From the NCBI GenBank assembly GCA_946645685.1, contig CAMPCJ010000003.1:1-58481 (forward strand): DNA of 58,481 nucleotides. The letters are read 5' to 3'. This DNA is from an uncultured Clostridia bacterium. Its GTDB lineage: Bacteria; Bacillota; Clostridia; Oscillospirales; SIG627. This document shows positions 8,570-58,481 of this stretch, in pieces. Made by a program: the position numbers and the translations under genes. Within the stretch, counting starts at the first letter, position 1; every line of letters begins with the position of its first letter. Below the pieces are notes generated by a model. It did not search any database and was not told the origin of the DNA. It saw only the letters and a list, made by a program, of their open reading frames with translations.

Positions 8570-10931
8570 AAAAGCCGTTGTAACATTGGAGTTTGACAAG
8601 GTCCTGCGGGACCTTGCCTCTCTTTGCGCCGTGGAAGCGGGCAAAGAAAAGATCCTTTCTCTGATGCCGGAGACCGACGCGGACAGAGTGGCGCTCCTTC
8701 TGAAGCAGACCGCCTCCGCCCGCCGTATTTCCGGGATCCGGGGAGAACCGTCTCTGTCCGCGCATCCTACGCTGCCGGACGTGATCGACCGGTGCGAGAA
8801 GGGGGCGCAGCTCAACGCGGCTGAGCTTTTGCGGGTGGCGCGCCTTTTGCATTCCGCCGACCGGGCAAAGGATTACGGAGAGGCGCTGGAGGGGGAAGAC
8901 GCTGTTTTGGGTGAGATCTTCCGCCGCCTTCTGCCTGATCGGGCGCTCGCCCATGAGATCGACCGCGCGCTGCCGTCCGAGGACGCTGTTGCGGACGACG
9001 CCAGCCCCGCGCTCTTTTCCATTCGCCGAAAAAAGAACGCCTGCGCTCTGAAGATCCGGGAAACGCTGCAGCATTACATTTCCGGCTCTTACGCCGCCTA
9101 TTTGCAGGAGAATATCATTACCTTCCGCAATTCCCGCTACGTTATCCCGGTGAAGAGCGAGTATAAGAACGAGATCCACGGGCTGATCCACGACACCTCG
9201 TCCTCCGGCGCCACCGTCTTCATCGAGCCTATGAGCGTGGTGGAACTGAACAATCAGATCAAAGTGCTGGACGGGGAAGAGCGGGACGAGATCGACCGGA
9301 TCATGTGGGAGCTTTCCCGCCGTGTTTCCGGTGACGCGGATCTTCTTCGCCTGGATTTTATCAATATCGTGGAGCTTTCCGTCATTTTTGCCCGGGCTGC
9401 GCTGGGCGCCCGGATGGAGGGCGTTACCCCCACTATTTCCAAAAACGGCGTTCTGGATCTGAAAAAGGCGAAGCACCCCCTCCTGGATCCCAAAAAAGCG
9501 GTGCCTATTTCCGTTTCCCTGGGGCGTGACTTCGATACGCTGGTGATCACGGGACCCAATACCGGCGGCAAAACCGTCACCTTGAAGACCATGGGGCTTC
9601 TGGCGATGATGGCGCAGTGCGGGATGCAGCTCCCCGCGGAGGAAGCGGAAGTGCCCGTTTATCCCGACGTTCTGGCGGACATCGGCGACGAGCAGAGCAT
9701 CGAACAGTCCCTTTCGACCTTCTCCGCCCACATCGTCAATATCATTGATATGCTGGAGCGTACCAAACCCGGGGTGCTGGTGCTCTTCGATGAATTGGGA
9801 AGCGGCACGGATCCGGTGGAGGGCGCCGCCCTGGCGGAATCGATTTTGATGACCGTTCGGGAAAGGGGCGCCGTGTGCGCCGCCACCACCCATTACGCGG
9901 AACTGAAAACCTACGCGCTGGAGACGGAAGGGGTGGAGAACGCTTCTTGTGAATTTGACATCACCACGCTGATGCCGACGTATCGTCTGATCCTCGGCGC
10001 CCCCGGACGTTCCAACGCCTTTCTCATTGCCTCAAGGCTCGGCTTGTCGGAGGACGTGATCCGCCGCGCCGCCGTTTTGGTAAAAGCGGAAGACCGCCGT
10101 TTTGAGACCGTGGTGGGCAGGCTGGAGGACGAGCGGGTGCTCATGGAGCAAAAGCGGGCGGAAGCGGAGCGGCTTCTTGCCGAAGCCCGTCAAATGCGGG
10201 ATACCGCCCTGGCGGAGCGGGAGGGCTTGCTTGCCGGCGCGGAGAAAGAAGCGGAGCGCGCCAAACGGGAAGCGCTCAGGCTCATTCGCAGCGCCCGCGC
10301 CGTTTCCGATCAGGCGTTTGAAAAGCTGGACGAACTGCGCCGCCGCGCGGAAAAGGAACAAAACCTTGCTTGGCTCTCCGAAGAGCGGCAGCGGATGAGA
10401 CAAAACCTGGGCAAGGTGGAAGACGCCGCGCTGGAAGGCGGCGTCAAGCGGGAGGATGAGAACGATCACTACGTACCGCCCCGTCCCCTGCGGGTGGGGG
10501 ACAACGTATTTCTGCCCCACGTGGGGAAGGAGGGCGTTGTGGAAAACATTCGCGGAGGGGACGTAACCGTTCTGGTCGGCAATCTGCGGATGAAGACCGC
10601 CCTTTCCGGTTTGCGCCTCATCACGGATCTTTCCGGCAGAAAGAAGACCGTGCGGAAGGGAAGCGTCACCGCCTCCCCCCGCTCCGGCACTTCCGGCAGC
10701 GTGGACGTGAGAGGAATGGTGACGGATGACGCCTGGCTTGCGGTGGACAAGTACCTGGACGACGCGATCCTGACGGGGTATGAGACCGTGACCATTATCC
10801 ACGGCAAAGGCACCGGCGCTTTGAAAAAAGGGTTGTGGACTTACTTTAAGGGAGATCCCCGCATCGCTTCTTTTCGTCTGGGAAATTTCGGCGAAGGGGA
10901 CTCCGGCGTCACCGTTATCCGGTTGAAATAA
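8556..10931 (+). CDS. mutS2: Endonuclease MutS2
   Basis: 791 aa; GPNTGGKTVTLKTMG, LFDELGSGTDPVEGAALA, C-terminal Smr domain VDVRGMVTDDAW...IIHGKGTGALKKG. Confidence 0.98.
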   Translation: MIPFEKAVVTLEFDKVLRDLASLCAVEAGKEKILSLMPETDADRVALLLKQTASARRISGIRGEPSLSAHPTLPDVIDRCEKGAQLNAAELLRVARLLHSADRAKDYGEALEGEDAVLGEIFRRLLPDRALAHEIDRALPSEDAVADDASPALFSIRRKKNACALKIRETLQHYISGSYAAYLQENIITFRNSRYVIPVKSEYKNEIHGLIHDTSSSGATVFIEPMSVVELNNQIKVLDGEERDEIDRIMWELSRRVSGDADLLRLDFINIVELSVIFARAALGARMEGVTPTISKNGVLDLKKAKHPLLDPKKAVPISVSLGRDFDTLVITGPNTGGKTVTLKTMGLLAMMAQCGMQLPAEEAEVPVYPDVLADIGDEQSIEQSLSTFSAHIVNIIDMLERTKPGVLVLFDELGSGTDPVEGAALAESILMTVRERGAVCAATTHYAELKTYALETEGVENASCEFDITTLMPTYRLILGAPGRSNAFLIASRLGLSEDVIRRAAVLVKAEDRRFETVVGRLEDERVLMEQKRAEAERLLAEARQMRDTALAEREGLLAGAEKEAERAKREALRLIRSARAVSDQAFEKLDELRRRAEKEQNLAWLSEERQRMRQNLGKVEDAALEGGVKREDENDHYVPPRPLRVGDNVFLPHVGKEGVVENIRGGDVTVLVGNLRMKTALSGLRLITDLSGRKKTVRKGSVTASPRSGTSGSVDVRGMVTDDAWLAVDKYLDDAILTGYETVTIIHGKGTGALKKGLWTYFKGDPRIASFRLGNFGEGDSGVTVIRLK

Positions 10932-10944
10932 CGCACCGGCTTCT

Positions 10945-10984
10945 AAAGTGGGAGAAAACGATGGTTTTCCCCCACTTTTTTTCT
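10945..10984 (+). terminator. Rho-independent terminator after mutS2
   Basis: AAAGTGGGAGAAAAC-gatg-GTTTTCCCCCACTTTTTTT. Confidence 0.85.
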
Positions 10985-11218
10985 GTTTTCCGGGGAAAAA
11001 AGCGCATTTGTTCCCCACTTTTCACACACAAAAATATGTTAACAAATTGTAAACTTATAAGGGGCGGGGAGGATAAGTTTCCACCGGCTCGCGTAAAATA
11101 GGACGTATATAATAAAAGGAAAAGCGAAGGAAATTTGCCCTGTAAAACGGTAGAATTTCCCAAGCGAAAATAAATATGAATAAAAAATTACCAAAAAGAC
11201 TACAAAGTGTGAACTCCA

Positions 11219-11247
11219 TTGACTTTCCGTCTGAAAGACCCTATAAT
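11219..11247 (+). promoter_or_regulatory. Candidate sigma-A promoter (TTGACT-17-TATAAT)
   Basis: -35 11219-11224, -10 11242-11247, upstream of ATG 11291. Confidence 0.75.
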
Positions 11248-11290
11248 GACAACCGCTTTCCCCCAAGCGGCAAACGTAACAGGAGATCGT

Positions 11291-12070
11291 ATGTTTAAAA
11301 AGTATCGAATTCTGTCCGCTCCGTTTGCCTTTTGTGCCACAAGTTTGATCCTGGTGATCGCCATGCTGGTCCCCGGCATATCCCTTCCTGCGAGAAGCGT
11401 GATCGTTGCGGACGCAGCCCCCGCCGTAGTGGAGATCGTTACGGCGGATGAACCCAAGAGCAAAGGAGCGGAATCGGAGGCAAAAGAGAATACCGATCCG
11501 GAAGCTGACGGCAATTCGTCCGTTCGCCCTGCCGGATTCCACGCCATCGAGAAAAACGCGCCCTCTTCCCTTGCCAATGATCTGATCGAGACCAACCCGC
11601 AGTTGGAGCAACAGATCCGGCAGGAAAGCGCCGCCCTTCCCGATGGGGAGACCACACTTCCCGTCAAGAACTTTATCATGTATAATCTGACGGACGAGGA
11701 GTACCGCCTTTTATGCTGGTGCGTGGAAGGCGAGGCGCACGGAAAATCCATGGAGCATCGCTGCATCATTGCTCAGGTCATTTTCAACCGTGTGTTCAAC
11801 GACCGGTTTCCCAATACCGTTAAAGACGTGATCCTCTCTCCCAATCAGTTCAGCGTGATGAGTTGGTATAACCCCAAGCTTTACGACGGTTTTGTCACCG
11901 CGCAGACCGAAGAAGCCGTCAATGCGGTCCTGAACGGGGATGTGGAAGATATGTCTCAAGGCGCTCTTTACTTCTGTAATCCCACCCGCGCCAACAACGT
12001 GGAGTGGTTCGATAACGCACTGGTCACCCTTTTCGAATTTGAGAATCACCGGTTCTATACGGCGCCCTGA
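11291..12070 (+). CDS. Cell wall hydrolase, SleB/CwlJ-type Hydrolase_2 domain
   Basis: N-terminal TM; LTDEEYRLLCWCVEGEAHGKSMEHRCIIAQVIFNRVFNDRFPNTVKDVILSPNQFSVM. Confidence 0.93.
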   Translation: MFKKYRILSAPFAFCATSLILVIAMLVPGISLPARSVIVADAAPAVVEIVTADEPKSKGAESEAKENTDPEADGNSSVRPAGFHAIEKNAPSSLANDLIETNPQLEQQIRQESAALPDGETTLPVKNFIMYNLTDEEYRLLCWCVEGEAHGKSMEHRCIIAQVIFNRVFNDRFPNTVKDVILSPNQFSVMSWYNPKLYDGFVTAQTEEAVNAVLNGDVEDMSQGALYFCNPTRANNVEWFDNALVTLFEFENHRFYTAP

Positions 12071-12106
12071 TTCTCATAGTTACGAAAAAGATCCGAAAAT
12101 CCGTAG

Positions 12107-12143
12107 AAAAGCAAGAGAACAGTTGTTTCTCTTGCTTTTTTTT
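12107..12143 (+). terminator. Rho-independent terminator
   Basis: AAAAGCAAGAGAAC-agtt-GTTTCTCTTGCTTTTTTTT. Confidence 0.8.
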
Positions 12144-12150
12144 GCGTTGT

Positions 12151-12185
12151 TTGATAAAATAAATCTGTATCCGTGTATATACACG
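12151..12185 (+). promoter_or_regulatory. Candidate promoter (TTGATA-17-TGTATA) with 14-bp palindrome CGTGTATATACACG over the -10
   Basis: -35 12151-12156, -10 12174-12179; palindrome 12172-12185. Confidence 0.5.
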
Positions 12186-12203
12186 AAAAAAGGAGTATTG
12201 ATT

Positions 12204-13577
12204 ATGCATCGTTCGTATATGGATCCCAATGATTTCATCAACGTTTCCGATTCCGACAGCCGTATGATCCAGAAGGCGGTAGATGAAGCCGTCCAAACGG
12301 GCTGCGGCAACGTGGTCATCCCCGCTTACAATGAGCGCACCGGATCATACCTTTGGGTGATCGAAGAGAGCATCCTGCTCCCGTCCCACATCACCGTCAC
12401 GCTGGACAACGCGCACCTGCGGATGGCGGACGGCGTTTTCTGTCAAATGTTCCGGAACGCCAACGCCTTTGAGGAGATCGGGCGCACGCCGGAGGGCTTG
12501 CAGGAGGACATCGTCATCCGCGGCGTGGGTCGGGCGATCCTGGACGGCGGCAAGCACAACGGATTGCGGGAAAAAACGTCCCTGAAGGACGGGATGCCCC
12601 ATATCGTGAATAATCTGACTGTGTATCTGCACAACGTGAAGAACTTCCGGATCGAGCATCTTACCATCCGGGATCAGCGGTGGTGGGGCATCACCTTTGC
12701 CTGGGCGTGGGACGGCGTCGTTTCCGATATCCATTTTGAGATCGGCGACAAGAGCGTGCGGGAATCCACGACGCATCCCTGGCGGAACCAGGACGGCATC
12801 GACCTGCGCGTCGGTTGTCACGATATTCAGCTTTTGAACTTGACGGGAGAGACCTGCGACGACATCGTGGCGCTGACCGCCCTGGCGATCCGTCCCAGGT
12901 GTTTTGAGCTGCTTCATTCCTGCGATCACCTGCCTTTTGATATTTACAACGTCACCATCAAGAACATCACCGGCCGCAACAATCATTGCGCGCTGGTGCG
13001 GCTTTTGTGCCATAACCGCCGCCGGATCCACGACATCACCATTGACGGCGTGACGGATACCACCCCGGCGGACGAGGACGTGATCCGTACCGCTTCCTGC
13101 GTCAAGATCGGGGAGAACGGGTATTGTCCCGATCCCGCCCAACGCTGCCTGCCGGAGGAAATGCGGGATATTTTCGTTTCCAACGTGCACTCCGCGGCTT
13201 TGGCGGGGGTTGTCTTGAACTGCGCGGCGCAAAACGTCATCATTCGCAATCTCTCCGTTAGCGAAAAGGGCGACCACGCCATCGCCGTGTCTCAGATCAA
13301 AGCGGGTCGCCATTTGCTGATGGAAGAGGCAGACCGGGATTCCGGGCTTGCCATGGATGCTTCTCAGCGCAGTACACACATCGTCAATCTCCTGGCGGAC
13401 GGCATCAGCTGGGGCAGTACCCGCCGGGGCGCTACGCCTTTCTATTTTGACGGGCTTGTCGCCAAAAACGTGCGTATTCAAAACGTGGCTGTGAAGGGGG
13501 ACGCGGAATTGATGTGCGCCATTCACCCCCAGGAGGACGGGGAAGAGGTCACGTTTGAAAACGTGATCCGTTTCTGA
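12204..13577 (+). CDS. Right-handed beta-helix glycoside hydrolase, GH28-like, no apparent signal peptide
   Basis: Start ATG 12204 after AGGAG; repeated beta-helix pattern; NQDGIDLR and CDDIVAL resemble GH28 NTDG and DD motifs. Confidence 0.75.
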   Translation: MHRSYMDPNDFINVSDSDSRMIQKAVDEAVQTGCGNVVIPAYNERTGSYLWVIEESILLPSHITVTLDNAHLRMADGVFCQMFRNANAFEEIGRTPEGLQEDIVIRGVGRAILDGGKHNGLREKTSLKDGMPHIVNNLTVYLHNVKNFRIEHLTIRDQRWWGITFAWAWDGVVSDIHFEIGDKSVRESTTHPWRNQDGIDLRVGCHDIQLLNLTGETCDDIVALTALAIRPRCFELLHSCDHLPFDIYNVTIKNITGRNNHCALVRLLCHNRRRIHDITIDGVTDTTPADEDVIRTASCVKIGENGYCPDPAQRCLPEEMRDIFVSNVHSAALAGVVLNCAAQNVIIRNLSVSEKGDHAIAVSQIKAGRHLLMEEADRDSGLAMDASQRSTHIVNLLADGISWGSTRRGATPFYFDGLVAKNVRIQNVAVKGDAELMCAIHPQEDGEEVTFENVIRF

Positions 13578-13614
13578 AAGGATCCGCGATCCATTTTGAA
13601 CAAGAGGAGGGCGT

Positions 13615-16215
13615 ATGAAAAGAGCCGGGACAGGACTTTTTGCGGCATTGCTTTCTTTGGCAATGCTTTTGAGTCCGTTTGCGCTCCCCTCGTGGGCAAA
13701 TGAGAGTTCCTCTCTCATCGGTGACGTGGACGGGGATGGGTTTATCCTGCCCCGTGACGCCGCCATCGTTGCCCGTTATCTCGCCCGGTGGGAGGATTAC
13801 GTGGATGAAGACGGCGCTTTGACGTATCCGGATCAGGAGGACGCCTCCTTCTGTGTGGGCTACGGCAGAGTGGACGTTACGCCGGATCTGTCTTATTACG
13901 CCCGGGTGCCCCTCGCCGGCTTCGGCAATACCAACTCTCGGCTCGCCAGCGGCGTACCGGATGGGGACGGCATTTACGTAACCTGCATCGCCCTGCGGGA
14001 CGAATCGGGGGAGGTGATGCTCCTCTTCACCATGGATCGGTTGAGTCTGAGCGGCTTGAAGGCGACCTATCATAAGACCTACCTTGCCGATTGCTTGAAA
14101 AGCGCGGTGGAGAGAGCCACCGGCATTTCCACGGACCATATGGCGGTGAACGTGTCCCATACGCACTCCGCGCCGGAGGGGCCCACGTCTTTTGTTGACT
14201 CACCCGCGGGCTGGGGCTATATGACTCGATATTACCAGGAAGTGTTCCAGAAGGGCGTTCAGGCGGCGCGCCGCGCCTTGGCGGATCTGTCTCCCGCCAC
14301 CTTGTGGGCGGGGGATACCAGCGTGGCTGATCTAAACTTTGTCCGCCGCCACCTGACCTGGTACGCCAGCACCGCTTCTGCGGCGGGATATCAGACCCGC
14401 TCCGTCATCGGAGAGGGGGAGGGTACCACCAACCGCGTCGGCTATGAAGCGCCCAATCCCGTGGACGACGGCGGGGTATATTATGAGCATGAGACCCCTG
14501 CGGACAACGAGGTGCAGTACCTTGTCTTCAAGCGCGAGGGGGTCAAGGACGTTTTGCTCTATAACTGGCAGTGCCACGCGGACATTACCGGGAACGACTG
14601 TTACGATCTGAACGAAGACGGCTCTTATCACGCCTTTTCCTACAACGCTTCGGATTACAAAAATATCAATAAGACCATCCTTGCGCCGGGCAACCGTGTC
14701 ATTACCTCGGACTACATTGCCGGGGTACGCCGCGTGCTGGACGAGCAGGAAGGGTATCTGACGGCGTTTTTCAACGGCGGCAGCGGCAATATGAATTATT
14801 ACGACTACGTGGGCTACGCCATGAACGCCCGTTACGGCAGAGCGGAGTATGAACAATACCGACTGCCCGGATGGGACGATCGGTATTATGACTACGCCTC
14901 TTCCTTCTCGACCAGCACCGGGCGCAAAGGGTACTGGAAATCCCAAATGGTCGGCGCCATCGTCGCCGACGCCATCAAGAAGGATATCGCCGCCACCGAC
15001 TCGCCCTTTGTGTATGATACGCCCGTTCACCACGATGTGGTTTCCACCCAGGCGCAAAGCGGCAGAACGTACGTGGATGAAGAAGGAAATACGCAAAGCG
15101 TGATCAGCCACAACTGGACGAATGATTTTGAGGGTATGGTGCAGCTTCCCACCGGGAAATTGAATATGATCCATTCCACCTATTACACCACCTTTGAGAA
15201 TGACGATCTGGCGCTGAAGACCGTGATGTCGTACTTGTCCGATCTGGCGCGGTACGGCAGGGTCAGCGTGGGCGACGACGGGGATATCCTCCTGCGCGGC
15301 ACCGAAGCCATTGAGCCGGACGGCTCTAACGGTACCGCCTTGTATACCATCACCTACACCTATAAAAACAAAACAGGGACGGAGACCATCACCGAAAAAG
15401 AAGTCGATGCGATCCGCGCGCTTGCCCGGGAGTATGCGCAACGAAAGACGGTCGCGGAACAAAAAGCCTTTGCCTGGGAGGTTTTGAATACCTATCGGGA
15501 TCTTGTGGTAAAGTCGTTCAGCGCCGGGATGTATGAAAACGGCGGCAGCGGCGGCTCCTATAACGCCGCCTACAAAAAGGCGCGGACCCTTGCCCGCCTC
15601 GCCACCGGACTGTATCTGAGCAATTATTCCGCCAACGCCCTCTATAACCGCATTTCTTACACCGATCTGGATCACGAGGATACGGACGTTACGAAATATA
15701 CCGAGGGCGTTCCTTTGTCCTGCCTTTCCATCGGCAAGTCCGTGGCGTTTACCTTTATGCCCTATGAAATGTTTGATACGGTGGGGCAGATGATCAAGGA
15801 CGGGCGCTATATCGTGTATGACGAAAGCGGTGCGCCCGTTACCGAGACCCGCGTCGCCACTCCGCCCACCGGCAAAAGCGGGTCCACCTATACGGGGCTT
15901 GATGGCGCCAAGCGGCCGTATCCGTCCATAAGCTACGAAGCGGCGACCTATACGTATACCGACGCCAAATCGCCCTTTCCCATGACCTTTGCCTGCGGCT
16001 ATACCGACGGCTCCGTGGGATATATGCCCACGCGCTACGCGCGCTTTCATCCCGAATCTCAGAATTATCAGAACGGGTATGAGACCTACGTTACCTATTA
16101 CGCCGCCGGCTCCACGGAAGATCACACGTCGGAGATCCTGGAAATGCTTCACCTTTTGTACACCGACGGGGATACCTCCCCTCGCGTGACCGGGCATCTT
16201 TCCGGCGTTTCGTGA
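13615..16215 (+). CDS. Secreted protein: signal peptide + N-terminal dockerin-like module + neutral/alkaline ceramidase-like domain (copy 1)
   Basis: IGDVDGDGFILPRDAAIVARYLARWEDYVDEDG; VGYGRVDVTPDLS...PLAGFGNTNSR; VSHTHSAPEG; LLYNWQCHADITGND; FNGGSGNMNYYDYV; MPYEMFDTVGQMIKDG. Confidence 0.85.
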   Translation: MKRAGTGLFAALLSLAMLLSPFALPSWANESSSLIGDVDGDGFILPRDAAIVARYLARWEDYVDEDGALTYPDQEDASFCVGYGRVDVTPDLSYYARVPLAGFGNTNSRLASGVPDGDGIYVTCIALRDESGEVMLLFTMDRLSLSGLKATYHKTYLADCLKSAVERATGISTDHMAVNVSHTHSAPEGPTSFVDSPAGWGYMTRYYQEVFQKGVQAARRALADLSPATLWAGDTSVADLNFVRRHLTWYASTASAAGYQTRSVIGEGEGTTNRVGYEAPNPVDDGGVYYEHETPADNEVQYLVFKREGVKDVLLYNWQCHADITGNDCYDLNEDGSYHAFSYNASDYKNINKTILAPGNRVITSDYIAGVRRVLDEQEGYLTAFFNGGSGNMNYYDYVGYAMNARYGRAEYEQYRLPGWDDRYYDYASSFSTSTGRKGYWKSQMVGAIVADAIKKDIAATDSPFVYDTPVHHDVVSTQAQSGRTYVDEEGNTQSVISHNWTNDFEGMVQLPTGKLNMIHSTYYTTFENDDLALKTVMSYLSDLARYGRVSVGDDGDILLRGTEAIEPDGSNGTALYTITYTYKNKTGTETITEKEVDAIRALAREYAQRKTVAEQKAFAWEVLNTYRDLVVKSFSAGMYENGGSGGSYNAAYKKARTLARLATGLYLSNYSANALYNRISYTDLDHEDTDVTKYTEGVPLSCLSIGKSVAFTFMPYEMFDTVGQMIKDGRYIVYDESGAPVTETRVATPPTGKSGSTYTGLDGAKRPYPSISYEAATYTYTDAKSPFPMTFACGYTDGSVGYMPTRYARFHPESQNYQNGYETYVTYYAAGSTEDHTSEILEMLHLLYTDGDTSPRVTGHLSGVS

Positions 16216-16228
16216 GAGGAGGCGGACT

Positions 16229-18001
16229 ATGCGTATCAAGATCGTTTCCCTCCTGCTCGCCGTATTCCTTCTTTTGCCGATCTTTTCCGTTTCATCCTTT
16301 GCCTTGACCCCTGCGCAGGCGGCGGACGTGGATGGCGACGGCACCGTTACCGCCCGGGACGCGGCGATCCTTGCCCGTTTTACCGCCGGTTGGAGCGGAT
16401 ATGTGGATGAACAGGGCGGGCTGACTTACCCCTGGAAAAAGGCGCCGACTCCCGGCGACTTTGTCAAATCCTTTGATCCCGATCACCCCGTTGATTTTGG
16501 CGGCTACACCTTCCGCATTCTCACCTTCGGGGGCGGAGACAACGGAACGCGGGATTATAACGGCGAGACGGTTCAGAATTTCTCCATCACCCATTTTTCC
16601 GTGATGGATGTGTCTCCCTGGACGGAGGGAAGCCGGTTTGACAGCGAGGATCGCGCCAAGCATTTCACGAAAATGAGCCGGGCGGTCGCCGCCCGCAACG
16701 CCTACCTGGAGACGACCTATAACTGTCATATCGAAGAAGTGCGGGTGCTGGATCCCTTTTCCGAATTGTATGACGACGTGCTCAGCGGCTCCCGATCCTA
16801 CGACCTCGCTACCTGCAGTGTGGGCTTGCTTTCTTCTGCATCGGCTTACGCCAATCTGTCCGGTCTCAGTGCGCCTGCCCAAGTCACCTCCGGCGTTTTC
16901 GCCAACGTGTTGAAGATCCCCACCGTGGATATTACGAAAGAATGGTACGACGGCGATCTCCTGAAGGGCCTCGCCTGGAACGATACGCTGTATTATCTGA
17001 CGGGCGCCTCGGATTCCACGCTGCGCCAGGCGGTGTTTTTGCCTATCATCGGCTTGAAAAGCGTCTCGGACGCCTACGCCGACCTGAAGGATCCTCTTGC
17101 GGCGGGGAATTACCTATATGATCTGATCCTGAACGGGGAGTGGACCGTGGATAAGTTGACGGAGATCGTCAACACCTGCTACGCCGCCTATCCCGATAAG
17201 ACCGGGCGCTATACCTATTCCGCCGCTTCCACCAGCAACATCATCTTTGCCCTGGGAGCCGGCTTTTCTCCCTGCGACCCCGCCGGGGACAGCCTCTACG
17301 CCGATTTCGATTCCTGCCCCGGCAGCGCCGCCTTTATGAAGCTGCGGGACTTTCTTGCCGCTCGCCGTACCACGTCGGAGCTTAGCGCTTATACGGGCGG
17401 GTTGGAGAAATCCAAAATCATTATGCGCGCCATCGGCGCCGGCGTGTACTGTCACGGAACGGCTTATTCCTATACGGCGGAAGGGAACTGGATCGCCCCC
17501 GTTCCGTTTCCCAAGGGGGACGTGTCCCAGACCTCGTATATCACTCACCCCAATCCCGGCTTCGCCTACCTGTACGTGATCCCCAAAGTAAACAGGGCGG
17601 ATCTGTCTGCCCGGGCGCGCGGCTTTGAAACGGGCGTGGATATGGAGGGATACTTTCTCTCCGCCTTTATGGAAGCGTCTCTGGCGAAGCACAACGATTT
17701 GGGCTACGACGTGCGGGACGCCCTGATTGAGCAGCTTGCAGCTCTCGGCTCCGTCCATAACAGCGCCTTCGTCACCGAGCGTTTTCCTCAGGGAAAGCCC
17801 CGTGCGGTTCTGGACGCAGTCTTCGACGGCTTGACTCTCAACGCCGCTTACGTTTATACGCCCTCCGTTATGAACGCGCTTTCCAACTGCGCCGCTAAGG
17901 ACGAGAACTGGAACACCCTCGCTTCCCGGTATAACAGCGCTTTGGACAAGCAGGCGGAATATCTCGACCGGATCCACGATTACATGAAACTGGATCAGTA
18001 A
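16229..18001 (+). CDS. Secreted protein: signal peptide + N-terminal dockerin-like module + extracellular solute-binding-protein-like domain (copy 1)
   Basis: ALTPAQAADVDGDGTVTARDAAILARFTAGWSGYVDEQGGLTYPW, then GYTFRILTFGG...IPTVDITKEWYDGDLLKGLAWNDTLYYLTGASDSTLRQAVFLP; no lipobox Cys. Confidence 0.75.
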   Translation: MRIKIVSLLLAVFLLLPIFSVSSFALTPAQAADVDGDGTVTARDAAILARFTAGWSGYVDEQGGLTYPWKKAPTPGDFVKSFDPDHPVDFGGYTFRILTFGGGDNGTRDYNGETVQNFSITHFSVMDVSPWTEGSRFDSEDRAKHFTKMSRAVAARNAYLETTYNCHIEEVRVLDPFSELYDDVLSGSRSYDLATCSVGLLSSASAYANLSGLSAPAQVTSGVFANVLKIPTVDITKEWYDGDLLKGLAWNDTLYYLTGASDSTLRQAVFLPIIGLKSVSDAYADLKDPLAAGNYLYDLILNGEWTVDKLTEIVNTCYAAYPDKTGRYTYSAASTSNIIFALGAGFSPCDPAGDSLYADFDSCPGSAAFMKLRDFLAARRTTSELSAYTGGLEKSKIIMRAIGAGVYCHGTAYSYTAEGNWIAPVPFPKGDVSQTSYITHPNPGFAYLYVIPKVNRADLSARARGFETGVDMEGYFLSAFMEASLAKHNDLGYDVRDALIEQLAALGSVHNSAFVTERFPQGKPRAVLDAVFDGLTLNAAYVYTPSVMNALSNCAAKDENWNTLASRYNSALDKQAEYLDRIHDYMKLDQ

Positions 18002-18015
18002 TCCGCCGATCCGAA

Positions 18016-18050
18016 GGATCCCTCGGGGATTTGCCCGGGGGATCTTTTTT
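18016..18050 (+). terminator. Rho-independent terminator between the two cassettes
   Basis: GGATCCCTCGGG-loop-CCCGGGGGATCTTTTTT. Confidence 0.8.
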
Positions 18051-18073
18051 CATGCGCCATTACGTTTTTTTAT

Positions 18074-18102
18074 TTGACTTTTATACGCGAAAATGTTAGA
18101 AT
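18074..18102 (+). promoter_or_regulatory. Candidate sigma-A promoter for cassette copy 2 (TTGACT-17-TAGAAT)
   Basis: -35 18074-18079, -10 18097-18102. Confidence 0.7.
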
Positions 18103-18149
18103 AGTCTGTAAAGATGGGCAACGTTTATCATCCTGAAAGGATCGCGTAT

Positions 18150-20465
18150 ATGAAAAAAAGATTCCTTCGATTACTGGCGACGGTTCTATCGGCGGTCATG
18201 CTGCTTTGCGGCACGGCATTCCCCGTGTCGGCGGCGGAGCGCACTTCCGATCGGATCGGGGACGTTGACGGCGATGGGTGCATCCTGCCCCGGGACGCCG
18301 CCATCGTTGCGCGCTATCTTGCCGGGTGGGAGGATTACGTGGATGAAAACGGCGGTGTGAGCTATCCGGATTCGGCGACGAACGTATTCTCCGTAGGCTA
18401 CGGGATCGTAGACGTAACGCCCGATCTTGGATATTATAAGCGTATGCCTCTTGCCGGCTACGGCAGTACGGATACCCGCCACGCCACGGGGGTCGCGCAG
18501 GACGACGGCTTGAAGGTCACCTGCGTCGCCGTGCGGGATGAGAACGGGGAAGTTCTGATGATGCTTTCCGTGGATATCATCGGTATGGCGAACAATCTGG
18601 GCACCCAGATCCGTACCGCCGTTTCTCACGCTACCGGCACTCCCGCGGATCATATTTCCGTGACCGCGACGCACACCCACACCGGGCCCGATAACGCCAC
18701 CACTTACGCGTCCCGGGGTTATACGCAGCGTTGGTTTTTGGAGTTGGTGCAAAAAGCCGTCCGCGCTTCCCGCCGCGCCGTGAATGATTTTACGCCCGCC
18801 ACTTTGTGGGCGGGGGATACCTCCGTGACCAATATCAATTTCGTCCGGCGTTTTCTGGTCACCTATTCCAATTCGTCCACCTACAACAAGTATGAGACCC
18901 ATAATCTTATTGGCGACAATCACCGCGTCGGCTACGAGGGACCCAATAATGTGGACGACGGTGTGGTGTATATGGCGCACGAAACTGCCGGGGATAACGA
19001 GGTCCAGTATATCGTCTTCAAGCGAGAGGGTATGAAGGACGTTTTGTTGTATAACTGGCAGTGCCATCCCGATCAGATCGGCAATAACAATTACGATCTG
19101 GCGTCCGACGGAAGCTACATCGGCAAATACAACACTTCCGCTCCCGTAAATCGCGTCATTTCCGCGGACTTTATCAACGGATCCCGCCGGGTGTTGGAAA
19201 GCGCCGGGTATCTGACCGCCTATTATCAAGGCGCCGCCGGCAATATGAATCAGAACGACCGGATCGATAGCGCTCAGAACAAACAGATCGGCTCCACCGC
19301 TTTCAGCGCCTATCGCCTGAACGGGTGGGACGCCAAGTATTACAACAACTGTTACAGCGGGTCGAACACCAACAAGGGGTATTGGAAATCCCAGATGGTG
19401 GGCGCCATCGTGGCGGACGCCATTGTGAAGGATATTGCCAAAACGCCGGCGGATTACGCCGAGCCCGTTCATCACGACTCAAACGACAGCAACGGCGTGC
19501 CCCGGCAGAACTGGACGGACGACTGGCAGGGGCTCAAAGAGCTGCCCACCGGGCCCGTTCGCGCCGTTACCAGCACCTACTACACCACCTATCAAAGCAA
19601 TGACAGAGATTTAAAAGTGGTCATGGCGCAGCTTGCCGGGATTGCTTCCGGCCGTGTTTCCATCGCCTCCTCGTATTCGGTGCAGTATAACAACAAGGGC
19701 ACTACCGTCACCGTGGGAAGTGCGGATCTGAATCCTATCCGCTCTCTGGCGGTGGAGTATGCCGCCAAAACCACGGTCGCCGATCAAAAGGCGTTTGCCT
19801 GGAGTGTGCTGAACACGTATCGCAGCAAGGTGAACGACGCGTTTTCCGACGGAATGGAAGAAAACGGCGGCTCCGGCGGATCCGGTAACGTGTCTTACTG
19901 CGTGGCGCGGCTTCTGTGCCGCCTTGCCACCGGACTATACGTGAACAATTATTACGCCAACGCCCTCAGCTCCCGAAACGCCCACACGGATCTGAATGTT
20001 TTGGATACGGACAGCGGCAAGTATACGGAGCAGGTGGAATTGAACTGCTTCTCCATCGGGCAGTCCGTGGCGTTTTGCTTCGCTCCCTACGAAATGTTTG
20101 ATTCCATCGCCCAGCAGATCAAGGACGGACGCTATATTCAGTATGAGAACGACATCCCCGTCACCACCACCGTTACGTTGAACGGCATAAGCTTTGAAGC
20201 GGCGACTTACTCGTATACCGAAGAAAAATCTCCCTTTGCACTCACCTTTGTGATGGGGTACAGTAATTATTCCTGGGGCTACATCCCCACCCGCTACGCT
20301 CGAAATCATATGGAATCGCAGAATTTCCAGAACGGCTATGAGACTTACGTGACTCGCTTTGCAGTGGGAACGGCGGAAGAACACGGCGCCGAGCTTCTGA
20401 CGATGCTGGATATTCTCTATACCGGTAAAGATACCACGCCCCGGGTGACCGGGCATATCAACTGA
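18150..20465 (+). CDS. Secreted protein: signal peptide + N-terminal dockerin-like module + neutral/alkaline ceramidase-like domain (copy 2)
   Basis: MKKRFLRLLATVLSAVMLLCG; IGDVDGDGCILPRDAAIVARYLAGWEDYVDENGG; VDVTPDLGYYKRMPLAGYGSTDTR; ATHTHTGPDN; LLYNWQCHPDQIGNN; paralogous to 13615..16215. Confidence 0.85.
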   Translation: MKKRFLRLLATVLSAVMLLCGTAFPVSAAERTSDRIGDVDGDGCILPRDAAIVARYLAGWEDYVDENGGVSYPDSATNVFSVGYGIVDVTPDLGYYKRMPLAGYGSTDTRHATGVAQDDGLKVTCVAVRDENGEVLMMLSVDIIGMANNLGTQIRTAVSHATGTPADHISVTATHTHTGPDNATTYASRGYTQRWFLELVQKAVRASRRAVNDFTPATLWAGDTSVTNINFVRRFLVTYSNSSTYNKYETHNLIGDNHRVGYEGPNNVDDGVVYMAHETAGDNEVQYIVFKREGMKDVLLYNWQCHPDQIGNNNYDLASDGSYIGKYNTSAPVNRVISADFINGSRRVLESAGYLTAYYQGAAGNMNQNDRIDSAQNKQIGSTAFSAYRLNGWDAKYYNNCYSGSNTNKGYWKSQMVGAIVADAIVKDIAKTPADYAEPVHHDSNDSNGVPRQNWTDDWQGLKELPTGPVRAVTSTYYTTYQSNDRDLKVVMAQLAGIASGRVSIASSYSVQYNNKGTTVTVGSADLNPIRSLAVEYAAKTTVADQKAFAWSVLNTYRSKVNDAFSDGMEENGGSGGSGNVSYCVARLLCRLATGLYVNNYYANALSSRNAHTDLNVLDTDSGKYTEQVELNCFSIGQSVAFCFAPYEMFDSIAQQIKDGRYIQYENDIPVTTTVTLNGISFEAATYSYTEEKSPFALTFVMGYSNYSWGYIPTRYARNHMESQNFQNGYETYVTRFAVGTAEEHGAELLTMLDILYTGKDTTPRVTGHIN

Positions 20466-20474
20466 GGGGGTGGC

Positions 20475-22184
20475 ATGATGAAACGCAGATTATTCGCTCT
20501 GATCCTCGGTTTGCTGACGATCCTGCCCCTTTTCGCCCTGCCCGTATCCGCCCTGACGCCCACACAGGCGTCCGACGTGGACGGCGACGGTGCCGTCACC
20601 GCCCGGGACGCGGCGATCCTTGCCCGCTACGTGGACGGTTGGGACGGCTATGTGGATGAGAACGGGGAGTTGACCTATCCCTGGAAGATCACGTCGTCCC
20701 GTTTTGTCAAATCCTTTGACCCGTCTGATCCTGTTTATTTTGAAGACGGGTACACCTTCCGCGTTCTGACGTACGGCGGCGGTGACGACGGGATCCGTAC
20801 TCTCAACGGACAGACCGTACCAAAATTCAGGTCCACGCATTTCGCAGTGAAGGACGTTACGCCCTGGACGGCAGGTTCCTGGAGCGACAACAACGGCTAC
20901 GCGCAGTACTACACCCTGGTCAGCCAGGTCGTCGCGGAACGGAATCAGTACCTGAAGGATACCTATAACGTCACCGTGGAAGAAGAGCGGGTAGCGAGTC
21001 CCTTTGAAGCCCTCAAGATGGATACGCTGTGCGGGCTGCGCGCTTACGACGCCGTGATGCTGCCCTTAGGCAGCTTCAATTCCCAGTCCACTGTCGGGTA
21101 TTTGAAGAACGTGTTGACCATTCCCACCGTGGAGCTGTCCCGGGAATGGTATGATAAAGAGATTTTGGATGATATCACCTTTAACGATACGCTTTATTAT
21201 CTCACCGGCGCTTCGGACTCCGCCTTGCGGCAAAGCGTTTTTCTCCCGGCTATCGGTATAAGCAACATTCAGCAGACATATCATTTCACCTCTCCCAAAG
21301 ACGCTGCCGATTATCTGTACGATCTGGTGCTGAGCGGTCAGTGGACGATCGAAAAAGAGATCGAACTGCTTACCGATTGCTATAACGCCTATACCGGTAC
21401 GGGCACCCACTATATGATCAGCGCAGAGAAACGGGTCAATCACGATCATATGATGTCCGCCTGTTTCGATCCTTTGACGTACACCGGCGGGATCTATCAG
21501 CTGCGCGACTCCTTCGAGGATTGCGCAGGCTTTGACGCCTGGGAAAAACTAAAGCCGCTTCTGGCAGGCAGCGCCCGGGATACGGCGGGGGATAAGACCG
21601 CCATTTACAACGGGACGACTTCCCAATCCGTGATGCGCTACATCGGGAATACCGTGTACGCCTACAATACGCAGTTTAGAAGCGCGAAATACTATCTCGC
21701 CATTTTGCCGATGGCGAAAAAGGACGGGAATCAGAAACAGTACCGCGTCGCTCCCGCCATGGGCTTTTGCTATTTGTATGCCATTCCCAAGGTCAACCGG
21801 GGCGATCCCAACGCCGCCCGGTACGGCTTTGAAAACGGAACGGATCTGGCGGGCTACCTGATGAGCGCCTTTATGGAAGCGTCCCTCGCCAAACACAATT
21901 CCAAGGGATATGACGTAAAGAACGCCCACGTCCATCAGCTTGCCGTTCTGAAAGGACTGCACAACGCGGATTTCGCCGGAAAGCCTTTGCGGGTTTTGCA
22001 AATGACCTTCGATTCCGTTTGCCTGGATCGAGGCATGACGCTCTGCACATCTCTTTACGACGCCTTTAAAGACTGCGGCAACGATACGGCAAAATGGGAA
22101 GCGTTTTCCGCAACCTATCAGAACACGCTCAGCTCAAACAATTTCAATATCGCCAAAACCCAGGAATATCTGGCGTTGGAGTAG
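20475..22184 (+). CDS. Secreted protein: signal peptide + N-terminal dockerin-like module + extracellular solute-binding-protein-like domain (copy 2)
   Basis: ALTPTQASDVDGDGAVTARDAAILARYVDGWDGYVDENGELTYPW; IPTVELSREWYDKEILDDITFNDTLYYLTGASDSALRQSVFLP; paralogous to 16229..18001. Confidence 0.75.
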   Translation: MMKRRLFALILGLLTILPLFALPVSALTPTQASDVDGDGAVTARDAAILARYVDGWDGYVDENGELTYPWKITSSRFVKSFDPSDPVYFEDGYTFRVLTYGGGDDGIRTLNGQTVPKFRSTHFAVKDVTPWTAGSWSDNNGYAQYYTLVSQVVAERNQYLKDTYNVTVEEERVASPFEALKMDTLCGLRAYDAVMLPLGSFNSQSTVGYLKNVLTIPTVELSREWYDKEILDDITFNDTLYYLTGASDSALRQSVFLPAIGISNIQQTYHFTSPKDAADYLYDLVLSGQWTIEKEIELLTDCYNAYTGTGTHYMISAEKRVNHDHMMSACFDPLTYTGGIYQLRDSFEDCAGFDAWEKLKPLLAGSARDTAGDKTAIYNGTTSQSVMRYIGNTVYAYNTQFRSAKYYLAILPMAKKDGNQKQYRVAPAMGFCYLYAIPKVNRGDPNAARYGFENGTDLAGYLMSAFMEASLAKHNSKGYDVKNAHVHQLAVLKGLHNADFAGKPLRVLQMTFDSVCLDRGMTLCTSLYDAFKDCGNDTAKWEAFSATYQNTLSSNNFNIAKTQEYLALE

Positions 22185-23167: not shown

Positions 23168-23207
23168 AAAAAAAGAGCGCTCTGCCACCCGGAGCGCTCT
23201 TTTTTTG
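23168..23207. terminator. Rho-independent terminator
   Basis: AAAAAAAGAGCGCTC-loop-GAGCGCTCTTTTTTT. Confidence 0.85.
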
Positions 23208-23279
23208 CACCCATCCTTTTTGAGTTTCATACTATACAGTAATGCAAGGCTATTTTTTTCAGGAAAGGATGATGTCAGT

Positions 23280-25655
23280 TTGGCAAGCGGTACTTTTATG
23301 ATCACCGTCCGTGCTGCCGAAGAAGCGCTCTGCGTGGGCGGAACGCTTTTGGTGGTAACGAATGAGTTCGGACGGGAGATCCTGAGGGAGACCCTCAGCA
23401 ACACTTCTTCCGGTATCAGTAAAACGGTGGAGATCGAAGCTCCGGAGGAAGAAGCGTCTCTCAGCCCATCGGACGAGGTGCCCTATTCCACCTGTGACGT
23501 GGTGGCAAGCCGGGAGGGGTATTATACCATTCACGTCCACGATGCGCAGATCTTTGCGGGAGAGGAAGCGCATTTGCCCATTGAGATGCTTCCGCTTCCC
23601 GACGGACAGGTGGGCGGCGAGCTTCACTACACCGTGCCCCCCAATACCATTTCCGACAGCGACGGCGACGGTGAAGCGGATACGCCGCCTGAAGTCCCGG
23701 ACGGACGGGTGGATCCCAAAGTGCTTTCCCGGGTGTATATTCCCACAAACATCACTGTGCATTTGGGCAGGCCGGATGCCGCCGCCCGGAACGTGACCGT
23801 CCCTTTTATCGACTATATCAAAAACGTGGCATCCAGCGAGATCTATCCCACCTGGCCCAAAGAGTCTCTTCGAGCCAACATCTTAGCGCAGATCTCCCTT
23901 GCGTTGAACCGCATCTTTACCGAGTGGTATCCGTCCCGGGGCTACAATTTCGATATAACCAATTCCACCGCTTTTGACCAGTATTTCGTTTACGGGCGAA
24001 ACATTTTCCAAAGTATCTCCGACGTGGTGGACGAGATCTTCAATCAGTATATCCGCCGCCCGGGAAGGCTTGAGCCTCTGTTTGCCCAATATTGCAACGG
24101 GACCACCGTCACCTGCGACGGCATGAGTCAATGGGGCACGGTGTCCTTGGCGCAGAATGGCTTATCCGCCCGGGAGATTTTGGAGTTCTATTACGGAAAT
24201 ATTGAGATCGTCACGGAAAACGTGCGGCAGAGCGTCCAGCCTTCTTATCCCGGCTCGCCTCTGACCATCGGTTCCTCCGGGGCGGCCGTACAAACGATCC
24301 AGCGGCAGTTGAACCGTATTGCCCGCAACTATCCCGCCATTCCCACGGTGACGGTGGACGGTGTCTACGGAAACGCCAGCCGCGCGCAGGTACAGGCGTT
24401 TCAGCGGATCTTCAATCTGACGGCAGACGGCGTGGTGGGGAAGAGCACCTGGTATCGCGTCTCTTCCATTTATACTGCCGTGACCAAGCTTGGCGAATTG
24501 AATTCGGAAGGAGAAAGACCCGTGTACAATGAATTTGATTATCCCGGCACGCCGCTGCGCCGGGGAGACGTAGGCTCGGACGTGCAGGCGATGCAGTTTT
24601 ATCTGCAAAAGATCGCGGCATACAATAATTTCATTCCCCCCATTACAGCGGACGGAAGATTCGGGGAGCAGACGGAGAACGCCGTTACCGCGTTTCAGTC
24701 CTTTTACGGATTAAATGTGGACGGTATCGTGGGAAGGACCACCTGGAACAAGATCGTGGACGCCTACCGCGGTTTGGATCAGGATGGCGGCGGTGGCGGC
24801 GGACAGATCCGCCCCTATCCCGGAAACTTGCTTCGTCAGGGAAGCCGCGGCGACGACGTTTTGTATGTGCAGGAGCTTTTATGGAATATCGCCACTGTCT
24901 TTGAGGAGATCCCTTCTGTCGCCCGGGACGGGATCTTCGGAGCCGGTACAGACCGAGCCGTCCGGATCTTCCAGCAGATCTTCGGACTGTCGGCGGACGG
25001 GATCGTGGGGCGGCTCACCTGGGACGCTCTGGGGCAGATCTATACGTCTGTGAGGAACGATTGCATCCTGTCTTCCTCGGACAGTCAGACCCGACCGTAT
25101 CCCGGCGCGCCGGTTCGGTACGGAGCACGGGGCTCGAGCGTGAGCTATATCCAAACCTCGCTGAATACGATCCATTCCGCCATTCCCCGCATCGGTGTGA
25201 TCAGTGCGGACGGCGTGTTCGGGGGCGCGACCCAGACCCAGATCCTGCGGTTGCAGGGCATCTTCGGACTGAGCCAGGACGGCGTGGTGGGCAGTCAGAC
25301 CTGGAGCGTTTTGTCCTCCGTCGCCGCCGCCGTCCGGAACGGTTGCCTTACTTCGGTTTCCCGATCCGCCGTTCAACCCGTCAAGTCCTCGGAAGCGCAG
25401 CCGGTGATGAAAGAGATCTCTCAAAGTCCCTCGTCCTTCCCCGGCAGGGCTCTTTCCCTGGGGAGCTACGGCAAGGACGTTTCCCGCATCAAGGAAGCGC
25501 TGTTTGAAAAAGGGGAATGCGGCTGCCGCGCCATGGGAGAAAAGGCGCTCTATGGAAACGCGACCCGTCATACCGTCGCAGAGTTTCAACGGAAAACGGG
25601 ATTGAACGTGACCGGCGTCGTGGACGAAGAGACCTGGAACGTCATCTTCTCTTGA
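23280..25655 (+). CDS. SleC-like protein: SpoIID/LytB-like domain followed by five peptidoglycan-binding (PG_binding_1) repeats
   Basis: Likely TTG start at 23280 after AGGAAAGG (ATG of the larger ORF at 23205 lacks an RBS and overlaps a terminator); SSEIYPTWPKESLRANILAQ SpoIID-like; five YPG..L..GS.G.DV..IQ...DGVFG..T..AV..FQ..FGL..DGIVG..TW repeats. Confidence 0.87.
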   Translation: MASGTFMITVRAAEEALCVGGTLLVVTNEFGREILRETLSNTSSGISKTVEIEAPEEEASLSPSDEVPYSTCDVVASREGYYTIHVHDAQIFAGEEAHLPIEMLPLPDGQVGGELHYTVPPNTISDSDGDGEADTPPEVPDGRVDPKVLSRVYIPTNITVHLGRPDAAARNVTVPFIDYIKNVASSEIYPTWPKESLRANILAQISLALNRIFTEWYPSRGYNFDITNSTAFDQYFVYGRNIFQSISDVVDEIFNQYIRRPGRLEPLFAQYCNGTTVTCDGMSQWGTVSLAQNGLSAREILEFYYGNIEIVTENVRQSVQPSYPGSPLTIGSSGAAVQTIQRQLNRIARNYPAIPTVTVDGVYGNASRAQVQAFQRIFNLTADGVVGKSTWYRVSSIYTAVTKLGELNSEGERPVYNEFDYPGTPLRRGDVGSDVQAMQFYLQKIAAYNNFIPPITADGRFGEQTENAVTAFQSFYGLNVDGIVGRTTWNKIVDAYRGLDQDGGGGGGQIRPYPGNLLRQGSRGDDVLYVQELLWNIATVFEEIPSVARDGIFGAGTDRAVRIFQQIFGLSADGIVGRLTWDALGQIYTSVRNDCILSSSDSQTRPYPGAPVRYGARGSSVSYIQTSLNTIHSAIPRIGVISADGVFGGATQTQILRLQGIFGLSQDGVVGSQTWSVLSSVAAAVRNGCLTSVSRSAVQPVKSSEAQPVMKEISQSPSSFPGRALSLGSYGKDVSRIKEALFEKGECGCRAMGEKALYGNATRHTVAEFQRKTGLNVTGVVDEETWNVIFS

Positions 25656-58245: not shown

Positions 58246-58481
58246 TTATTTCGGACCGAGAGTGACGGTGGAAGTGCCGGTCTCAGCGTTGTAGTTTGCC
58301 AAGTAGTTCTTTAAGCGGACGATGTCCTTGCTGCTGATCACGCCGTCCCCGTTGGCGTCCGCCCCGGGGGAAAGCTCCACGGTGGAAGTGCCGGTCTCAG
58401 CGTTGTAGTTTGCCAGGTAGTTCTTCAAGCGGACGATGTCCTTGCTGCTGATCACGCCGTCCCCGTTGGCGTCCGCCCCGG
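58246..58481 (-). CDS. C-terminus of a protein with tandem dockerin-type repeats, truncated at right window edge
   Basis: ADANGDGVISSKDIVRLKNYLANYNAETGTSTVELSPG repeated in tandem and ending TVTLGPK; the window edge cuts the upstream part. Confidence 0.8.
   Translation of the reverse strand, partial: GADANGDGVISSKDIVRLKNYLANYNAETGTSTVELSPGADANGDGVISSKDIVRLKNYLANYNAETGTSTVTLGPK
58265..58481. repeat. 114-bp direct tandem repeat encoding dockerin-type units
   Basis: ACGGTGGAAGTGCCGGTCTCAGCGTTGTAGTTTGCC... starts at 58265 and again at 58379; the two copies are nearly identical. Confidence 0.85.

Follow-up and report, generated by a model that had tools for sequence, protein, structure and literature searches.

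Sequence comparison suggests that, in a tandem gene cassette of an uncultured Clostridia bacterium from the gut, one and the same half-dockerin replaces the lipid anchor in two unrelated protein families, which is the main new fact of the present analysis. The cassette lies in the window, by which we mean the whole stretch of 58,481 nucleotides that was analysed (contig CAMPCJ010000003.1 of assembly GCA_946645685.1). Its members are referred to here as A, hydrolases of the PF04734 superfamily, and B, proteins with a domain that resembles solute-binding proteins (SBPs). They are encoded on the forward strand in the order A1 (13615–16215, 866 aa), B1 (16229–18001, 590 aa), A2 (18150–20465, 771 aa; an alternative upstream start at 18114 is possible) and B2 (20475–22184, 569 aa), as established from the open reading frames, Pfam and alignment of the paralogues. 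A1 and A2 are 51% identical over 864 aligned columns (E = 0), and B1 and B2 are 44% identical over 594 aligned columns (E = 5e-168). The order of two paralogous pairs, the signal peptide followed by a common module in all four proteins and the adjoining GH28-like gene, all of which had been read from the DNA in the original prediction, were thus recovered at the positions given.

The GH28-like gene (12204–13577, forward strand), which is the first gene of the likely operon, encodes a beta-helix protein of 457 aa that matches PF00295 above the cut-off (39.5 bits, E = 4.8e-10); its NQDGIDL and DD motifs were noticed in the sequence itself and not via alignment to a solved enzyme. The intergenic gaps are 37 bases between the GH28-like gene and A1, 13 between A1 and B1, 148 between B1 and A2 and 9 between A2 and B2. 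Ribosome sites precede the genes, with an AGGAGG-like one before A1. Because the gaps are tight and the ribosome sites are present, GH28-A1-B1-A2-B2 is read as one transcription unit or two, which points to operon expression of the cassette genes. A promoter-like site ahead of A2 (18074–18102) is a weak one, as the scan yielded 11 sites where 7.2 were expected by chance. Further downstream in the window (23205–25655), a gene behind that for pyridoxamine kinase encodes five peptidoglycan-binding repeats and a SpoIID-like part within one protein; a similar protein of 803 aa follows the cassette of a relative from yak rumen.

The module common to the four proteins comprises about 38 residues directly after the signal peptide, with the consensus (G/AA/AS)DVDGDG.v..RDAAI.ARY.agW.gYVDE.G.LTYP. 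By Pfam and a module scan it was located, on the forward strand, at 13720–13830 in A1, where it is of the repeat-1 type with a Gly before the Ca loop, at 16319–16432 in B1, where it is of the repeat-2 type with an Ala at this place, at 18258–18368 in A2 and at 20568–20681 in B2. The modules of B1 and B2 scored 23.6 and 25.3 bits against PF00404 (Dockerin_1), above the cut-off of 22.9, and those of A1 and A2 just below it (18.3 and 17.1 bits). The best matches among solved structures were dockerin-type repeats, followed by calmodulins. The two tandem repeats of a type I dockerin are absent: a single repeat was found in 10 out of 10 A and B proteins from three species. Its Ca loop (D.D.DG.....D), which is followed by a helix, has kept the acidic positions in all ten modules; in the rabbit B protein the G at position 4 is replaced by E. 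The module had been called dockerin-like, and it is indeed of the dockerin type, but it is a half-dockerin with one repeat and not a whole dockerin. A scan of the genome for its full form placed it at 13723–13830 in A1, 16325–16432 in B1, 18261–18368 in A2 and 20574–20681 in B2, and nowhere else. When the module alone was searched for in 394 genomes of the order, full-length matches were confined to A and B proteins from the three species that carry the cassette; the remaining hits end before the tail and resemble ordinary dockerin repeats. The module is 37–41% identical to the two-repeat dockerins of its own genome.

Comparison of the window with the yak orthologues gave a dN/dS of about 0.07–0.14 for the module. 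The module of B is its best conserved part between species, since none of the 461–479 equal-length blocks of B equalled it; the A2 module is conserved no better than the rest of A2 (window versus yak). The low dN/dS and the conservation indicate that the half-dockerin is functionally constrained, by purifying selection. The parts of A1 and A2 that encode the module have a dS of 0.37 versus 1.06 in the remainder, a hint, from a small sample, of gene conversion between A1 and A2.

The exchange of anchors is apparent in the B family. A lipobox-type Cys at the end of the signal peptide is present in 28 out of 28 B relatives outside the cassette (27 by pattern and one, LLFSC, by eye). The cassette B proteins have none (0/5), and all five carry the half-dockerin instead; the one match to the lipobox pattern in the rabbit B protein is located within the signal peptide. 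Among the A relatives, the products of three A-like genes at contig C8 of the genome of the window have a signal peptide with a Cys at its end, and some further A-like proteins lack a signal peptide altogether.

A1 alone scored 21.5 bits against PF04734, below the cut-off of 32.1, and A paralogues of the same genome scored 44–47 bits, above it. Single-sequence searches of the PDB with A and with B gave nothing useful. A profile of A and its paralogues matched human neutral ceramidase (4wgk, E = 6.9e-21) and Pseudomonas ceramidase (2zws, E = 2.9e-17). The AlphaFold model of A is weak (mean pLDDT 51) and serves as support only; its sole significant Foldseek matches were ceramidases, the top four being 4wgk, 2zws and 2zxc entries. 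The zinc ligands of 2zws, His97, His204, Glu411 and Tyr448, correspond in the profile alignment to H175, H306, E648 and Y711 of A2, and these residues are invariant in all five A proteins. His175 belongs to the motif His175-Thr-His177, encoded at 18672–18680 on the forward strand (coordinates derived from the residue number). The position of the active-site Ser (Ser250 of the 2zws chain, Ser274 in P. aeruginosa precursor numbering) is occupied by Asn367 in A2, and this Asn is likewise invariant (5/5). On the evidence of the profiles A is a metallohydrolase of the neutral-ceramidase superfamily, for which the name ceramidase is not justified. The replacement of Ser by Asn makes true ceramidase activity doubtful and leaves catalysis by A unproven. 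The likeness to the ceramidase family that had been proposed therefore stands at the level of the superfamily and of the zinc site, but does not extend to the active-site Ser. A ceramide-degrading role was dropped because this Ser is missing, and the proposed lipid or glycolipid substrate found no support in this analysis.

The superfamily is very much expanded in another genome of the same genus (G001), which has 69 PF04734-like matching places, some genes being counted twice. About 20 of these places lie in one array of mostly lipoprotein-like genes (C19:131056–165010, loci L167 and L168) that ends next to a GH28 gene (L168:15611–16927). Contig C5 of this genome encodes two giant A-like open reading frames (L169:5072–9970 and 10180–15000), the first of 1632 aa and the second, which is cut by the end of the locus, of 1606 aa or more; both have a long region outside the A-like part, and the first is without a Pfam hit. 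The rabbit A protein (L090:9917–12877) has an extra C-terminal domain of about 290 aa with Cys/His motifs that look NlpC/P60-like by eye and gave no Pfam match at E 0.01.

The SBP likeness of B is more distant. B alone had no notable Pfam hit beyond dockerin, and the rabbit B protein matched SBP_bac_1 with E = 0.0027, below the cut-off. A profile of the B family (33 members) matched 2zyk (7.3e-6), MalE (3e-4) and an arabino-oligosaccharide binder (2.5e-3); four members of the family match SBP_bac_1 and four match SBP_bac_8. Alignment to an SBP of the genome by hhalign gave 94% over 59 columns, and the AlphaFold model of B, built from a five-row alignment, has a mean pLDDT of 36. A PF00528 permease in a clear operon with a B-like gene was found in none of 10 genomes of the family, a survey limited by short contigs. 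The closest such permeases lay at a distance of 1.2 kb and in opposite orientation (G002), of 7 kb (G019) and of 16 kb (G001). For lack of a clear transporter partner, B is to be regarded as a surface binder rather than as a protein of transport. The predicted SBP likeness is in line with the family profile, but the lipobox and a clear permease operon are missing. B is a putative distant relative of the oligosaccharide-binding proteins and is best seen as a surface binder of the SBP type. B-like lipoprotein genes also occur in tandem arrays outside a clear permease operon, with three copies in the genome of the window (L069:8335–13392, G000:C39) and six in another genome (L191, G002:C55:1–12000).

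The same GH28-A1-B1-A2-B2 block is present in the yak-rumen MAG RGIG10278 (G004, L089). In the rabbit-gut MAG Lapin-001 bin61 (G005, L090) the same locus (mutS2-sleB-GH28-A-B) holds just one A-B pair, and the GH28 gene is broken. The cassette is absent from the other three genus members searched (G001–G003), and a scan of genome contigs gave cassette loci in the yak and rabbit MAGs only. The A-B adjacency, which could have been peculiar to this genome, is thus found in three species. The A and B trees are concordant and place a joint duplication of the pair after the rabbit species had branched off and before the window and yak species separated. The GH28-like protein is 81% identical to its yak orthologue, and three fragments of the gene remain in the rabbit MAG. 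This breakage in the rabbit relative ruled it out as an obligate partner of the A-B pair. No signal peptide was seen in the GH28-like protein, which is therefore probably cytosolic.

Cohesins were found in every genome that bears the cassette. That of the window encodes cohesins together with eight dockerins in which both profile repeats are matched; the C-terminal end of an ordinary two-repeat dockerin protein, cut by the end of the contig, lies on the reverse strand of the window itself (58300–58481). One small cohesin protein of 205 aa has a signal peptide, one membrane segment and a single cohesin, which is encoded at C21:14523–14915 of the genome and scores 53 bits against PF00963. Its orthologues score 443 bits in the genome of the window, 234 in the yak and 144 in the rabbit MAG, which are exactly the three cassette species; G001–G003 have no orthologue, their best cohesin reaching at most 33 bits. 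This comparison covers six genomes, mostly incomplete, and it may just be that the three positive species are each other's nearest relatives. For independent species the probability of a perfect co-occurrence would be 1 in 20, but the species are not independent, so that it is a lead only. As such a lead, the 205-aa single-cohesin protein is the first candidate partner of the half-dockerin.

The reading that we tentatively prefer, with a probability of about 0.45, is that A and B form a surface-located capture-and-cut pair, tethered by a contact between half-dockerin and cohesin instead of by lipid. A and B would be co-expressed, extracellular and working as a pair at the cell surface. B, being of the oligosaccharide-binding type, would hold a glycan-containing ligand, which A, as a zinc-dependent hydrolase, would cut. 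An amide or ester bond is the one most likely to be cut, as characterised members of the superfamily do so. The lipid anchor of the B relatives and of several A relatives would have been replaced in the cassette by the common half-dockerin. This probably binds a cohesin, possibly that of the membrane-anchored single-cohesin protein, and such binding would hold A and B close to each other and to the cell. We infer from the sequences that the cassette is expressed as an operon, that cohesin is bound, that A and B are at the surface and act jointly, and which bond and which ligand are concerned. An argument against the tethered pair is that the cohesins of the genome may in reality serve its eight two-repeat dockerins.

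It could be supposed that the module is a Ca-binding relative of half-dockerins that has lost its cohesin binding and dimerises A or B or sticks to the cell wall. In other proteins a Ca hand often pairs with another of its type, and the identity to the two-repeat dockerins of the genome is low, as described above; set against this, dockerin-type repeats head the solved-structure matches and cohesins occur in all cassette genomes, and we regard this explanation as rather unlikely. Another possibility concerns B, which might be an ordinary transport SBP that passes what A produces on to an ABC importer encoded elsewhere in the genome. Its SBP-type profile and the presence of PF00528 permeases in the genome fit this. 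Transport is nevertheless unlikely, given that the survey of 10 genomes gave no clear operon of a B-like gene with such a permease and that a protein held by cohesin would reach a membrane importer less easily than a lipoprotein. That the module is a functionless remnant of a former two-repeat dockerin, as the presence of just one repeat might imply, is very improbable indeed: the selection test and the block comparison largely refute it, and the Ca-loop acidic positions have been kept in every copy.

A different view of the single repeat is that the dockerin is split, A carrying the first repeat and B the second, so that the meeting of A and B rebuilds a two-Ca dockerin able to bind cohesin. 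Every matched A module of the window and the rabbit species aligns to positions 1–24 of PF00404 and every B module to positions 31–56. Among 13 two-repeat dockerins of the order, Gly directly precedes the Ca loop in 13 out of 13 first repeats and in none of the second repeats, 11 of which have Ala there; the A modules have Gly at this place (5/5) and the B modules Ala or Ser (5/5). Repeat-specific HMMs that include the context before the loop favour repeat 1 in all five A modules and repeat 2 in four of the five B modules, and neither A nor B was ever found without the other. This preference is mostly gone, however, when the residues before the loop are left out, and the A modules have one ancestor, as have the B modules, which makes two observations rather than ten. 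For these two reasons the split dockerin is rated low, as quite improbable. In addition, the tail W..YVDE.G.L.YP, common to A and B, fits one module copied into two genes, and known half-dockerins function alone. Among the papers that the literature search covered, none dealt with a split dockerin. If it were true, only the assembled enzyme-binder pair would dock on cohesin, which would amount to a built-in assembly check, present twice in tandem.

Half-dockerins as such have been described. The group-2 dockerins of Ruminococcus flavefaciens have one recognised repeat (PMC2930009), bind cohesins with a Ka of 1e6–1e7 per M (PMC5301203) and were termed functional half-dockerins in a later paper (PMC8063739). 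The cassette module is like these short dockerins of strain FD-1 (PMC2930009, PMC5301203; PDB 9gvb) in its single Ca-binding repeat. Those, however, are C-terminal and on other proteins, whereas the cassette module belongs to another sequence type, lies at the N-terminus and is common to the products of two adjacent genes. Clostridium clariflavum has one protein with a single N-terminal dockerin repeat, Clocl_2271 (PMC4582956), which resembles the cassette proteins in this respect but is an isolated protein, with no partner in the passage that describes it. A is like neutral ceramidase (PF04734; 2zws, 4wgk) in its profile family and zinc ligands, and differs from it by the Asn in place of the active-site Ser, by large insertions and by the N-terminal half-dockerin. 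B has a weak but consistent family-profile similarity to oligosaccharide-binding proteins (SBP_bac_1/8; 2zyk, 2gha, 6rjy), from which it is set apart by the N-terminal half-dockerin and by the lack of a lipobox and of a clear permease operon. Pairs of a surface glycan-binding protein and an enzyme are known from polysaccharide-utilisation loci, which embody the same idea of a binder with a hydrolase in other families and with other anchoring. Among the papers covered by the literature search, one mentions both dockerin and ceramidase, and its abstract concerns Fibrobacter cellulose degradation.

Attachment by dockerin and cohesin is known mainly from plant-fibre enzymes. In the cassette a half-dockerin seems to stand in for the lipid anchor in two different surface protein families at once, a ceramidase-superfamily hydrolase and a sugar-binding-type protein. 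If this is true, nature would have supplied two short docking tags as a pair, and the cassette would directly pose the question whether half-dockerins act singly or in pairs.
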